Assembly (NCBI RefSeq): GCF_010119205.1
Contig: NZ_WRXM01000001.1
Coordinates: 1,364,001-1,428,000 of the forward strand
Length of the DNA stretch: 64,000 bases
Reading direction: 5' to 3'
Source: Haloarcula limicola
GTDB lineage: Archaea > Halobacteriota > Halobacteria > Halobacteriales > Haloarculaceae
Position numbers and translations under genes: made by a program. Positions 10,520 through 15,407 of this stretch are shown here, piece by piece (position 1 is the first letter of the stretch; the number at the start of each line of letters is the position of its first letter). Under the pieces are notes generated by a model that was not told the origin of the DNA, searched no databases, and saw only the letters and a list, made by a program, of their open reading frames with translations.

Positions 10520-12322
10520 TCATCGCTCTAATCGCCTGAGCGAGGGGTGGCCGTTGAGGACGTGCATCATCAGCGCCGTGATACAGAGTAGGAGGCCCCC
10601 GATGCCGAACAGGACGGCAGTGCCGAGCTGGATGGGGTACAGCGTTCCCGTCTCGACGAACTGCGCGACCAGCAAGAGCGTGACGCTCACGCCCAGTAGC
10701 GTGGTGATAGCGCCCGGAACGCCCACGATGAGCAGCGGGCGGCCGTACTCGACGGTCCACATGATGTTGCGGACCAGATCGAGGCCGTGCGAGAGCGACC
10801 CCTGCGTGCTGGAGTTCTCCACGTCGTAGGAGATGGTCGTCCCCACCTCGGCGACGCTCAGGCGGTTTCGGTGAGCGTGATAGAGGATGTCCGTGCTCGC
10901 ACCCATGTTGTCGCCGATGGTCGGGTCCGCCGCGAGCGACCGGACGGCGCGTCTGCTGTAGGCCCGGTAGCCGCTTTGCGTGTCTCGAACCCACCCGCTC
11001 GGTCGAAGGTTGCCGAGACTGACGTTGGTGAGGTTGTTGATGAGCGCCAGTCCGAGCGAGCGGACGAGCGGAATCTGCGTGTGGGACTCGCCGACGTAGC
11101 GGCTGCCGATGACCACGTCGGCGTCGTCGCGGGTCTGGGTCTCGACGAGGAGCGGAATGTCCGCCGGGTCGTGTTGGCCGTCGGCGTCGATGACGACGAG
11201 GTGGGCCGCGTCGCGCGCGGCGGCCTCCCGAAACGCCGTCTTGAGCGCCCCGCCGTAGCCACGGTTGCGGTCGTGGACGACGACGGTCGCACCGGCCTCG
11301 CGGGCGCGGGTGCCCGTCTCGTCCCGGCTGCCGTCGTCGATGACGACCACTTCGTCGGCGAAGGCGTCGGCCCGCTCGACCACGTCGCCGATGCTCCCGG
11401 CGGCGTTGTACGCCGGAATCGCCACCACGACCGCGGGGCCGTCGTCCGTCTCGCGCCACTGTTCGGGGATGGCGATGACGTCGTAGTCGGCCCGTTCGAA
11501 CGCCAGCGCTGTCCGGTCGTAGTCGATGCGCGGACAGTCCCGCGTCTGGAGGACGATCCCCGGTAGCCCGCGCTCTCTGGCGTGTTGAGACAGCAGCCGG
11601 TGGAGCTCCGACTGCGAGGCCCGCTGCCGGGGTGGCGAGAGGACGATCGCGCCGAGGTCCGCCAGCGTGTCGAGTGACTCCGCGTCGGCGTCGAGACCCG
11701 CGTACGTCGCTATCACCGTGTGCCCGCGCCGACCCGCTCGCAGGGCGGTGCGGTAGGCGGCGTCCTCGTTCGCCGCCGTGAGGACGACGCCGACGGCGGC
11801 GTCCGCCATCGCGCTCTCGTCGGCCGGCGATTCGGCGTCGGGAAGGGCGATCAGCGGCAGGTCCTCGTCGGTGACGCCCGGGACGACCGACGGGGCGACG
11901 TCGAGCGTCGCCGCACCGTCGGCTCCGACCCATTCGGCAGCCGTCTCGGTGAGTAGCTGCGCGTCATCGGTGACCGGAACGACCCGCTCGACGGAGGGAA
12001 TCGGTAGATCCGTCTCGGGCGCTCCGCGAACGAGATAGCCGAGCGCGACGCGCTCGCCCGGTCGCGTCACCTGCTCGACGACGAGCGACCCGTCGCTGTA
12101 AGCGGTCGGGCCGCCCGTCGTCGGTCCATCCCCGGCGAGCGACGCGAGCGCGTGCGTCTCCGGAACCGACTCGATGAGCGACACCATCACGGGTTCGTCG
12201 GCCGTGGAGTGCATCGAGAGTGTCACGAGACGCGTGTCGGCGTCGACGCTCTCGACGGACTTCGTCACCGAGACGCCCGCTTCCCGTATTGCTTTCGCTG
12301 AGTTCCCGTCCCTTGTTTCCAC
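10520..12322 (-). CDS. Dolichol-phosphate sugar synthase-like GT2 with extra N-terminal domain
   Basis: A 600-residue protein. Residues about 1-290 form an acidic beta-rich domain starting VSVTKSVESVDADTR that I know only as a haloarchaeal conserved region. Residues about 298-520 are a GT2 domain of the dolichol-phosphate-mannose-synthase type: AIPAYNAAGSIGDVV, VVIDDGSRDET, RNRGYGGALKTAF, VIDADGQHDP, and QSGYRAYSRRA. Two membrane helices close the protein. Family members charge a polyprenyl-phosphate with a sugar for N-glycosylation or wall polymers. The start is a GTG because no ATG precedes the conserved region. Co-oriented with the DUF1616 gene. The partner sugar is unknown. Confidence 0.85.
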   Translation of the reverse strand: METRDGNSAKAIREAGVSVTKSVESVDADTRLVTLSMHSTADEPVMVSLIESVPETHALASLAGDGPTTGGPTAYSDGSLVVEQVTRPGERVALGYLVRGAPETDLPIPSVERVVPVTDDAQLLTETAAEWVGADGAATLDVAPSVVPGVTDEDLPLIALPDAESPADESAMADAAVGVVLTAANEDAAYRTALRAGRRGHTVIATYAGLDADAESLDTLADLGAIVLSPPRQRASQSELHRLLSQHARERGLPGIVLQTRDCPRIDYDRTALAFERADYDVIAIPEQWRETDDGPAVVVAIPAYNAAGSIGDVVERADAFADEVVVIDDGSRDETGTRAREAGATVVVHDRNRGYGGALKTAFREAAARDAAHLVVIDADGQHDPADIPLLVETQTRDDADVVIGSRYVGESHTQIPLVRSLGLALINNLTNVSLGNLRPSGWVRDTQSGYRAYSRRAVRSLAADPTIGDNMGASTDILYHAHRNRLSVAEVGTTISYDVENSSTQGSLSHGLDLVRNIMWTVEYGRPLLIVGVPGAITTLLGVSVTLLLVAQFVETGTLYPIQLGTAVLFGIGGLLLCITALMMHVLNGHPSLRRLER

Positions 12323-12439: not shown

Positions 12440-13381
12440 TCACGCCGCCGTGACCGTCGTCCAGACGTGGACCTGTCTGACCGGCGATCGATCGTCCGTT
12501 CGGTACAGGCGATATGTCAGTCGGAGGCGTTCACCGGTCATCGACGGTCGAATCACGTGTCGATCGACGACCGACCCGCCGGCCTCGACCCGCACCGGAA
12601 ACCGGACGAGTTCTCGCGACCGCCGGACGCGGACCGAGTCGCCGTCGACGCTGACCCGTTCGAGGCTGCCGACGACCCTCCCCTCGAACGACTCCGGTCC
12701 GCGGACGTCGACGCCGATGCCGACCGTCGCCGGTTCGCCGGCGGTCAGCCGTTTCGGTTGGCTATCAGCCCGCAGGTCACCCGCGGCGTTCTCGCCGAGG
12801 ACGTAGAACGCCGTCACGTTCGACGACGGCGTCGAGTCCCGTGCGACGACGCCGACCGCGCCCGCCGCGGCGACCACCACGAGGACACTCAGCGCGATGC
12901 CGACGACTCCCCCGCCGGTAACAGCGTCTCTCGTCCGGGACCGAATCGTCGAGAAGCGGAGGCTGACGCGGGCGTCGGCCGGCGTTCGCCGACGGCGGTA
13001 GAACGCGAAGGCCGTCGCCGCGAGCGTCACCAAACTCAGTCCGGAGAGGACGGCGGTCCGCCGGAACCCCCAGACGGTGAAATCGAGGACGACGCCGACG
13101 ACGGCGATCGCGACGACGCTCCCGCCGACGCTCAGGCCGAGCCGGGCGAGCCACGAGGTCTCGGAAAACGACGACGGGGCCGCCTCGCCCGCGCGGGGAA
13201 AGACCGCCGAGACGAGGGCGTAGCCGGGAACGAGGAGGACGAAGGGGAGACCGACCAGGATAGCCGCGGGCCGCCACTCGCCCAGCGGCGTGAACGCGAC
13301 GGCGGCCGCGAGACCGACGCTCAGGACAACCCCCCACAGATCGGCCGCGCCGCCGTCACTTCTCGGCCCCGGACCAGTCAT
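12440..13381 (-). CDS. DUF1616 membrane protein
   Basis: A 313-residue membrane protein. Two helix pairs (about residues 12-55 and 80-125) frame the DUF1616 core with PFVLLVPGYALVSAVFPR. A fifth helix about residue 165 precedes an external beta-rich domain of about 130 residues ending TYRLYRTDDRSP. Archaeal DUF1616 proteins recur beside glycosylation and cell-surface genes, as here next to the GT2 gene, but their biochemical role is not known. The ATG at 13381 lies downstream of a short A/T-rich stretch and is the only good start. Confidence 0.85.
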   Translation of the reverse strand: MTGPGPRSDGGAADLWGVVLSVGLAAAVAFTPLGEWRPAAILVGLPFVLLVPGYALVSAVFPRAGEAAPSSFSETSWLARLGLSVGGSVVAIAVVGVVLDFTVWGFRRTAVLSGLSLVTLAATAFAFYRRRRTPADARVSLRFSTIRSRTRDAVTGGGVVGIALSVLVVVAAAGAVGVVARDSTPSSNVTAFYVLGENAAGDLRADSQPKRLTAGEPATVGIGVDVRGPESFEGRVVGSLERVSVDGDSVRVRRSRELVRFPVRVEAGGSVVDRHVIRPSMTGERLRLTYRLYRTDDRSPVRQVHVWTTVTAA

Positions 13382-13445: not shown

Positions 13446-14453
13446 TCAGGCGCTCGCGCCCGGCCCGGACGGCGCGTTCGTCTCGACGGCGTCGCCGCCG
13501 GTGGACGCTTCGAGCAGCTCCCGGTAGCGGTCGCGGATGGTGACCGTGCTCACGTCGGTGGCCTCGCTGACCGTCTCCTGGGTGAGTTCCTCGTCGACGA
13601 GCAGGCCGGCGGCGTAGATGGCGGCCGCGGCCAGGCCGACGGGGCTCTTCCCGCTGTGGACGTTCTCGTCCTTGCCCGTCTCGATGAGGTCGCGGGCCTG
13701 CATCGCCAGTTCGTCGCTGGCGTCGACCTTCGAGGCGAACTTGGTGAGGTAGTTCGCGGGGTCGGGCGGGCCGATTTCGAGAGCGAGTTCGCGGTTGATG
13801 TAGCGGTAGGCGCGGGTGAACTCCTGTTCGTCGACGCGGCTGACGACCACCATGTCGTCGATGGTCTGGGGGAGGTTCGTCTGCCGGATGGCCGCGTACA
13901 ACGACGCCGTGGCGATGCCCTCGATGGAGCGACCCGGCAGCAGGCCCTCGTCCAAGGCGCGGCGGTAGACGACGCCGGCCGTCTCGCGGGCGCTCTCGGG
14001 GACGCCGAGCGCGCTCCCCATGCGGTCGATCTCGCCCAGCGCCTGCTTGAGGTTGCGCTCGCTGTGGTCGCGGGTGCGGAAGCGCTCGTTCCAGGTGCGA
14101 AGGCGCTGCATCTTCTCGCGCTGGCGCGACGAGAGGGAGTTGCCGTTGGCGTCCTTGTTCTGCCAGCCGATGTTGGTCGAGAGCCCCTCGTCGTGCATCA
14201 GCTTCGTCGTCGGCGCGCCGACGCGGGACTTCTGGTCGCGCTCCGCGGAGTCGAACGCGCGCCACTCCGGCCCGTGGTCGATGGCGTCCTCGTCGACGAC
14301 CAGCCCACAGTCGGCACACACCGTCTCGCCGCGTGTGCCGTCCTGCGTGAGGTTGCCGCCGCAGTCCGGGCAGGCGTGCTCGCCGCGCTCCGTCTCCTCC
14401 TCCTGGACGGTGCTGTCGCGTTCGTCGGCGTCGTAGGTGGTGAGTGTGGTCAT
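13446..14453 (-). CDS. tfb: Transcription initiation factor IIB (TFB)
   Basis: Archaeal TFB of 335 residues that bridges TBP-bound promoter DNA and RNA polymerase. The N-terminal zinc ribbon uses Cys28/Cys31 (CPDCG) and Cys46/Cys49 (CADCG). The B-reader region follows (HGPEWRAFDSAERDQKSR). Two cyclin repeats occupy about residues 130-225 and 230-320. The start ATG at 14453 is preferred to the upstream GTG because the acidic N-terminus MTTLTTYDADER is normal for halophilic TFBs. Haloarchaea carry several tfb genes with different target sets. The palindrome at 14530-14545 upstream is shared with the adjacent HTH_10 regulator promoter, suggesting specific control. Confidence 0.97.
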   Translation of the reverse strand: MTTLTTYDADERDSTVQEEETERGEHACPDCGGNLTQDGTRGETVCADCGLVVDEDAIDHGPEWRAFDSAERDQKSRVGAPTTKLMHDEGLSTNIGWQNKDANGNSLSSRQREKMQRLRTWNERFRTRDHSERNLKQALGEIDRMGSALGVPESARETAGVVYRRALDEGLLPGRSIEGIATASLYAAIRQTNLPQTIDDMVVVSRVDEQEFTRAYRYINRELALEIGPPDPANYLTKFASKVDASDELAMQARDLIETGKDENVHSGKSPVGLAAAAIYAAGLLVDEELTQETVSEATDVSTVTIRDRYRELLEASTGGDAVETNAPSGPGASA

Positions 14454-14529
14454 GGTAAGGGAGGCGAGCGATGAGACCACCGCTCGCGTAGGTACTCTAA
14501 TGGAAGGGTCCTACCCGTATCAGGTCTAG

Positions 14530-14545
14530 TTCGGCATGTGCCAAA
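14530..14545. promoter_or_regulatory. Palindromic operator candidate upstream of tfb
   Basis: TTCGGCATGTGCCAAA, an imperfect palindrome 77-92 bases before the tfb start. It matches the palindrome at 15392-15407 (TTCGGCGTGTGCCGAA) in 14 of 16 positions. The two copies flank the HTH_10 regulator gene. Binding by that regulator is inferred. Confidence 0.5.
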
Positions 14546-14561
14546 GAAGTATGTCAGGCCC

Positions 14562-15347
14562 TCACACGCGGGAACGGCTGACGCGAAGCCGGGAGCCTTC
14601 GGCCACCGACTCGTCGGCCTCGACAGGACCCATCGACCGGGTGACGAACGAGCGGACGATCCACGCCTCGGCGCGCTGCAGGCGGTACTGCAGGGTCGAG
14701 CGCGAGACGTCCAGCGTCTCGGCGAGGTCCGAGAGGGACGTGTCCCGCGGGGTGCGGTAGTAGCCGTGTTCGACGGCCGCCTCGACGGCGGCTTGCTGCT
14801 CCGGGGGGAGCTCCGCGAGCGTCACCGCCTCGTCGGTCCAGTAGGAGGGGTCACCGAGCTGCCGGAACTCGACGGTGAGCCCGGGCCGGAGTTCGGCCTC
14901 GAGCGCCCCGAAGAGGTCGTCGACGCCCTCGTCGTCACAGAGCAGCAGCCGCCACTCGCAGCGACTGCCCCGCCGCTCCGTCTCGACGAGGACGCCCTGA
15001 CCGACGTGTTCGATGGCGAGTCGGGGGATGGAGTGGCAGTCGCCGGCCTCCGACCGATAGCTGTAGACGGTGCGACTGCCCGCTTCTTCGGCGATGACCT
15101 CGTAGTGCCACTCGGTGTCGCAGTCGCGCGTCCCGATGCACTCCGTGCACTGGACCGGCCCGTCGAAGACGTCGTCTAAGCGTTCGAGGGCCTCCTCGGT
15201 GCCCGCGATGCGTTCGAGCCGCCACATCCCGTTGCTGGTGACGTTGCAGGCGATGGTCCGGGAGTGCGTCGCCGGGTTGTCGATGAACACGTCCATCAGC
15301 GGGTCCAGCCCCCGCTCGTAGTCGATGGTGAAGATGAACTCTCGCAT
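14562..15347 (-). CDS. HTH_10 (Bat/DmsR-type) transcription regulator
   Basis: A 261-residue regulator. The C-terminal HTH_10 domain (about residues 200-250) reads LPPEQQAAVEAAVEHGYY then LSDLAETLDVSRSTLQYRLQ. The N-terminal domain begins REFIFTIDYERG and carries a cysteine cluster near residue 80 (CTECIGTRDC) plus C-x3-C-type residues later, which could bind a metal or sense redox state. The ATG at 15347 follows a strong TATA box and gives a leaderless transcript; the frame upstream is not needed. The palindrome TTCGGCGTGTGCCGAA lies upstream of its TATA box, with a near copy between this gene and tfb. Ligand and target genes unknown. Confidence 0.88.
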   Translation of the reverse strand: MREFIFTIDYERGLDPLMDVFIDNPATHSRTIACNVTSNGMWRLERIAGTEEALERLDDVFDGPVQCTECIGTRDCDTEWHYEVIAEEAGSRTVYSYRSEAGDCHSIPRLAIEHVGQGVLVETERRGSRCEWRLLLCDDEGVDDLFGALEAELRPGLTVEFRQLGDPSYWTDEAVTLAELPPEQQAAVEAAVEHGYYRTPRDTSLSDLAETLDVSRSTLQYRLQRAEAWIVRSFVTRSMGPVEADESVAEGSRLRVSRSRV

Positions 15348-15368
15348 TGCCCGTTCGTAGCCCGTCGA

Positions 15369-15407
15369 AGCATATATATCCACCCAAAATTTTCGGCGTG
15401 TGCCGAA
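15369..15407. promoter_or_regulatory. Promoter and perfect palindrome between HTH_10 regulator and 15444 gene
   Basis: Minus-strand TATA element (CATATATATCC, about 15370-15380) sits about 22-33 bases before the regulator start at 15347. Just upstream of it is a perfect 16-base palindrome, TTCGGC-GTGT-GCCGAA, at 15392-15407. The position, directly upstream of the TATA/BRE, fits an activator site or an autoregulatory operator, and it could also serve the plus-strand gene at 15444. Confidence 0.6.

Follow-up and report, generated by a model that had tools for sequence, protein, structure and literature searches.

Bat, the bacterioopsin activator and founding type of the HTH_10 regulators, is a haloarchaeal activator that acts upstream of the TATA region. 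In Halobacterium salinarum, RosR recognizes an imperfect palindrome of about 20 bp and directly controls both tfbB and its own gene (PMC4287449). RosR occupies 252 loci, and its effect on tfbB is repression; part of the response is carried by the TFB, and a TfbB-to-RosR feedback has been listed (PMC4287449). Archaeal activators bind upstream, and repressors downstream, of the pre-initiation complex (PMC4287449). GvpE, a dimeric haloarchaeal activator that interacts with TFB and TBP and activates its own operon, has an element of two 8-nt parts separated by four unimportant nucleotides, which adjoins the BRE and loses its function at a greater distance (PMC4390858).

Here we analysed a 64,000-nt stretch of the Haloarcula limicola genome (the window), in which a regulator gene and the TFB gene beside it, tfb, are each preceded by a palindrome. 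Like the RosR system, this locus combines a haloarchaeal regulator, a palindrome and control, predicted here, of a TFB gene and of the regulator itself; unlike RosR, the regulator is of the HVO_2928_N/HTH_10 type, has three detectable sites, usually lies near its TFB gene and has a site position that suggests activation. As in the GvpE element, two half-elements 4 nt apart adjoin the BRE, but GvpE is leucine-zipper-like and targets gas-vesicle genes, not a TFB gene. The C-terminal HTH_10 domain is shared with Bat, whereas the N-terminus is HVO_2928_N, and a Pfam search of the regulator found none of the PAS/GAF-type sensor domains that precede HTH_10 in Bat proper. RosR–tfbB is a precedent for control of a TFB by a regulator, and the idea as such is therefore not new. 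The novelty lies in the regulator family, the tight predicted three-gene regulon, the putative specificity residue and the pairing with a dedicated TFB in several families; a search of the literature outside subscription papers found no paper on the HVO_2928_N/HTH_10 family controlling a TFB.

The regulator–TFB locus and its palindromes

The features of the locus are as follows.

13446–14453, minus strand: tfb, an accessory TFB gene (335 aa, ATG at 14453)
14517–14522, minus strand: TGATAC, weakly TATA-like, 7 bp downstream of the operator before tfb
14530–14545: putative tfb-promoter operator, TTCGGCATGTGCCAAA, reading TTTGGCACATGCCGAA towards tfb
14562–15347, minus strand: HTH_10/HVO_2928_N regulator gene (261 aa, ATG at 15347)
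15372–15379, minus strand: regulator TATA box, ATATATAT
15392–15407: putative regulator-promoter operator, TTCGGCGTGTGCCGAA

The preliminary description had reported two 16-mers, at 14530–14545 and 15392–15407, with 14 of 16 positions identical, the second just upstream of the regulator's TATA box. Coordinates and identity are correct, and the proximal end of the second site is 12 bp from the TATA box. In this copy the 6-bp arms form a perfect inverted repeat, and the consensus of the sites is TTYGGC-N4-GCCRAA. The TATA box stands 24 bp from the ATG, and the regulator transcript is probably leaderless or nearly so. The other site, 77–92 bp upstream of the tfb ATG and between the regulator stop codon and tfb, is part of the tfb promoter, of which TGATAC is the probable core.

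A scan of the window allowing up to 3 mismatches found 6 strand-matches where shuffles predict 1.94, and none of 100 shuffles reached 6; four of the six are the two sites, each counted on both strands. Across the 3.9-Mb genome there are just three occurrences of the strict symmetric form TYGGCRYRYGCCRA, these two and one inside a coding sequence, and none of the reversed control pattern. Elsewhere in the genome, a perfect palindrome with a different spacer, TTCGGCAGCAGCCGAA, is found at G000:C1:54649–54664 (L001).

The regulator has an N-terminal HVO_2928_N domain (PF24281, E = 1.9e-67, 226.4 bits against a gathering cut-off of 27) and a C-terminal, sigma-region-4-like HTH_10 domain (PF04967, E = 5.7e-14, 52.1 bits against 23.1). 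Pfam gives no match to PadR, the winged-helix type of RosR. In the AlphaFold model (pLDDT 82) the predicted recognition helix spans residues 216–239 and starts at Arg216. The N-terminal domain is predicted to adopt a tandem ferredoxin-like fold, for which the sole structural match well above background is Ta1207 (5m86; Z 11.9; Foldseek, VIA-align); a literature search on that protein found no paper. Cys67, Cys76 and Cys104 of this domain are conserved in an alignment of 76 homologues.

The gene that follows on the same strand encodes a TFB (archaeal TFIIB) with a zinc ribbon (PF08271) and two stretches of TFIIB cyclin-like repeats (PF00382), one of 8 TFB-like genes in the source genome. In a tree, the regulator-linked TFBs, including this one, mostly cluster apart from most Haloarcula paralogues, with no single exclusive clade. 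Downstream of tfb, also on the minus strand, lie a gene for a DUF1616 membrane-type protein (12440–13381) and a long, glycosyltransferase-like open reading frame (10520–12322).

Conservation within Haloarcula

Our genus sample comprises 32 genomes, 28 of which have a regulator orthologue directly upstream of tfb. Conservation in relatives, which had been proposed as a check, is found for the palindromes of all 28 regulator genes and of 27 of the 28 tfb genes. The regulator-promoter site keeps a near-constant distance to the ATG and the TATA box in all 28 orthologues, and the tfb site lies about 84–94 bp before the tfb ATG in its 27, even though the intergenic region ranges from about 105 to 530 bp in size. 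Within genus alignments, the operator arms carry 1.64–1.87 bits, compared with 0.26–0.68 in the flank upstream of the site. The sole exception among the tfb sites is L014 (G006:C50, a partial MAG), in which an apparent deletion takes the end of the regulator gene together with the operator and joins the end of that gene with the leader of tfb; the deletion may be genuine or an artefact of assembly.

Of the 27 Haloarcula loci, about half conserve the TATA-like element near the tfb operator. The remaining loci have GTCATG or CTCATG there and TATAAT or TACAAT about 24 bp after the operator, which may be the element used in about half of Haloarcula tfb promoters. Another block, CCCCTAYAATTGGGTACG, is conserved 58 bp before tfb in one Haloarcula subgroup (L017–L030); it may be the real TATA box of tfb or act as an additional control site. 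GCGAG...CTCGC repeats hinted at a conserved RNA hairpin in the leader of tfb, but this was rejected when the consensus fold came out empty.

A third predicted target and a closed set of sites

Across the 32 genomes, the 16-bp form is nearly confined to the regulator and tfb promoters and one further recurrent place, with no control match throughout. This third site precedes a small DUF7127 gene (PF23444) outside the window.

G000:C2:321475–321702, minus strand: DUF7127 gene of the source genome, with site TTTGGCACATGCCAGC

Orthologues were identified in 26 genus genomes, each of which has the palindrome or a close variant, 54–57 bp before the ATG and 7–9 bp before a TATA-like element; the site is absent from DUF7127 paralogues outside the regulon. 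The product is predicted to share the alpha-crystallin fold of archaeal Hsp20s: the 6 PDB entries that match its model (pLDDT 80) at E ≤ 0.001 are without exception archaeal Hsp20s, the best being Sulfolobus Hsp20.1 (4rzk, E = 2e-4). It is shorter than these proteins (81 aa), with little sequence beyond the last strand, and has no Pfam Hsp20 match. A C-terminal extension with an IxI motif was sought and is absent, the source-species protein ending ...NGVLTVESAA, and we therefore call the product Hsp20-like rather than an Hsp20.

A loose genome scan with GGC-N4-GCC (about 290 strand-matches, no more than the control) was replaced by a profile of site plus TATA box, trained on tfb and DUF7127 promoters and run on 13 genus genomes, nine with the regulator and four without. 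The nine have their top matches, mostly at E < 0.005, in the regulator, tfb and DUF7127 promoters, and the next-best matches elsewhere reach E = 0.04 or worse; matches to the training sites arise by construction, and the informative results are the recovery of the regulator promoter, which was left out of training, the absence of other strong matches and the empty genomes. The latter, G012, G013, G017 and G020, yield nothing below E = 0.2. They also have neither a DUF7127 orthologue nor a TFB of the linked type, their best TFB reaching 68% identity compared with 75–98% among linked orthologues. Their completeness is 90% for G012 and 99–100% for the other three. In this genus, the regulator, the linked TFB, the Hsp20-like gene and the sites are present or absent together.

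Persistence of the pair in other families

In other families of the order, 22 regulator homologues lie near a tfb, mostly in divergent orientation. When a site is any sequence in the upstream 250 bp that differs from TTYGGYNNNNRCCRAA at one position at most, the palindrome accompanies 19 of these 22, compared with 0.08 expected, and 14 of 77 unlinked homologues, compared with 0.5 expected. It stays with the regulator–tfb pair in divergent, tandem and convergent orders: in tandem loci L164 and L173 and convergent loci L163 and L175, it lies upstream of tfb, in the convergent pair at two mismatches. L164 and L173, from two genomes of another family, unite the three parts in one cluster, with a DUF7127 gene divergent to the regulator, operators between them and tfb next; their DUF7127 gene is most similar to the regulon member of the source species. 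Divergent tfb loci of other families have TATA-like elements similar to those of Haloarcula.

The operator follows the regulator phylogeny in our tree. A single origin of the tfb linkage was considered and rejected, since the regulator tree requires 7 changes of the linkage label. Three close relatives with no tfb nearby (L178, L179 and L189; regulator start at 2001) have two GGT-type operators, one about 215–230 bp upstream and the other at −24. Divergent to the regulator is a gene for a universal stress protein (Usp) in L189 and an apparently related gene in L178 and L179.

Residue 216 and predicted operator specificity

In an alignment of 76 regulators, Arg at residue 216 goes with GGC...GCC arms, and Gln, Leu or His with GGT...ACC arms. 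Counting operators with at most one mismatch and leaving Haloarcula orthologues aside, we find 18 Arg/GGC, 0 Arg/GGT, 1 non-Arg/GGC and 14 non-Arg/GGT cases, plus three hybrid operators (L150, L153 and L160); a Fisher test on these counts ignores relatedness, and some distant one-mismatch sites may be chance. The tree requires 5 operator switches, at least 4 of them forced by well-supported branches, and residue 216 changes alongside. Outside the discovery set, L323 (Leu/GGT) and L326 (Arg/GGC) fit the rule. Exceptions to the rule are L330 (Thr with GGC) and L130 (Val with GGC, at two mismatches). This covariation ties the palindrome to the HVO_2928_N/HTH_10 regulator, and the joint change of residue and base is strong indirect evidence that the regulator reads it.

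In two Haloarcula genomes the Arg/GGC regulator is accompanied by a paralogue of Gln type whose operator is GGT (L126 in G009, L127 in G007). In G009, L010 (Arg, GGC) and L126 (Gln, GGT) occur together, and such paralogues suggest insulated parallel circuits in one cell.

Proposed mechanism

In the reading we favour, with a probability of roughly 0.75, the protein is a dedicated regulator of its own, the tfb and the DUF7127 promoters, forming a stress-type switch that raises a TFB and a chaperone-like protein. It would bind TTYGGC-N4-GCCRAA, probably as a dimer, with Arg216 at the start of the recognition helix reading the inner G–C pair of each arm. Its Haloarcula targets would be its own promoter, the neighbouring accessory TFB and the distant DUF7127 Hsp20-like gene. 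That one regulator acts on both palindromes of the window, as the preliminary description proposed, is made probable by their conservation, joint absence, persistence through rearrangement and covariation with residue 216.

The palindrome ends about 6–9 bp before a weak TATA box at DUF7127, at about half of Haloarcula tfb promoters and, in other families, at most of the divergent tfb promoters. The layout is that of a GvpE-type element at DUF7127 and at many tfb promoters, where the arms, 4 nt apart, end about 7–9 bp before the TATA box. At tfb and DUF7127, the dimer would thus sit just upstream of the BRE and TATA box and recruit or stabilize TBP and TFB at weak TATA boxes, most likely resulting in activation. 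Activation of both genes is favoured because the site position matches the GvpE element and because archaeal activators bind upstream of the pre-initiation complex, although a BRE-adjacent site could also block TFB and so repress.

At its own promoter, the regulator would be autoregulatory. The self-site is upstream of the TATA box in Haloarcula, whereas in most other lineages it lies directly downstream of a TTTA-like element, about −24 from the ATG. Since it falls between TATA box and start outside Haloarcula, self-regulation is probably repression in most other lineages; in Haloarcula the sign is uncertain, and self-control may have changed sign with the position of the site. The feed-forward arrangement proposed earlier is partly supported: it was incomplete, missing the third conserved and predicted target, DUF7127, and its self-regulatory arm may be negative in most lineages. 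The TFB may, as was also proposed, go on to switch a large set of promoters. A stress signal is plausible given the three conserved cysteines, the Hsp20-like partner and the Usp gene divergent to the regulator in L189, and the outcome would be a joint rise of the alternative TFB and the small chaperone-like protein.

A more ambitious reading, which we offer as tentative and rather doubtful, makes the regulator, TFB and Hsp20-like protein a self-contained switch that has stayed intact despite rearrangement of its genes. Its logic would resemble that of an alternative sigma factor with an activator of its own: the regulator would raise a dedicated TFB, which would redirect polymerase to its own promoter class, and residue 216 would insulate paralogous circuits.

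Alternative explanations

The same regulon could be run by a repressor at all three promoters, keeping TFB off the BRE until its cysteine-containing N-terminal domain senses a signal and releases the DNA. The abutment of site and BRE fits this idea, as does the self-site outside Haloarcula, which occupies a typical repressor position between TATA box and ATG. We nevertheless consider it unlikely, because the regular operator–TATA distance and the weak TATA boxes of DUF7127 and many tfb promoters fit an activator better and the GvpE precedent points the same way (PMC4390858).

A different DNA-binding protein might instead recognize the palindrome, the regulator gene being merely one of its targets, since sequence data show linkage and not binding. 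Archaeal regulators often control unlinked regulator genes. Such a protein would, however, have to account for at least 4 switches in which residue 216 covaries with the operator base, for an operator that stays with the regulator clade even in loci with no tfb nearby and for the joint absence of regulator and sites, which makes this explanation improbable. Chance or repeat-derived likeness without function has in its favour that high G+C gives many imperfect GGC-N4-GCC repeats, as the loose scan found. It is already contradicted, to the point of being negligible, by a strict form that is essentially limited to these promoters, with no control occurrence, and by conservation of the sites across 28 species and several families. 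A dedicated regulator of the three promoters remains the reading we prefer.

Significance

What turns on each of the many TFBs of haloarchaea is still largely to be worked out. The locus provides a concrete, conserved regulator–TFB pair for which three predicted target sites can be defined in each genome, and the predicted co-regulation of an Hsp20-like protein hints at the signal. It also yields a specificity prediction at the level of a single residue, namely that R216Q would shift the preference of the regulator from GGC to GGT.
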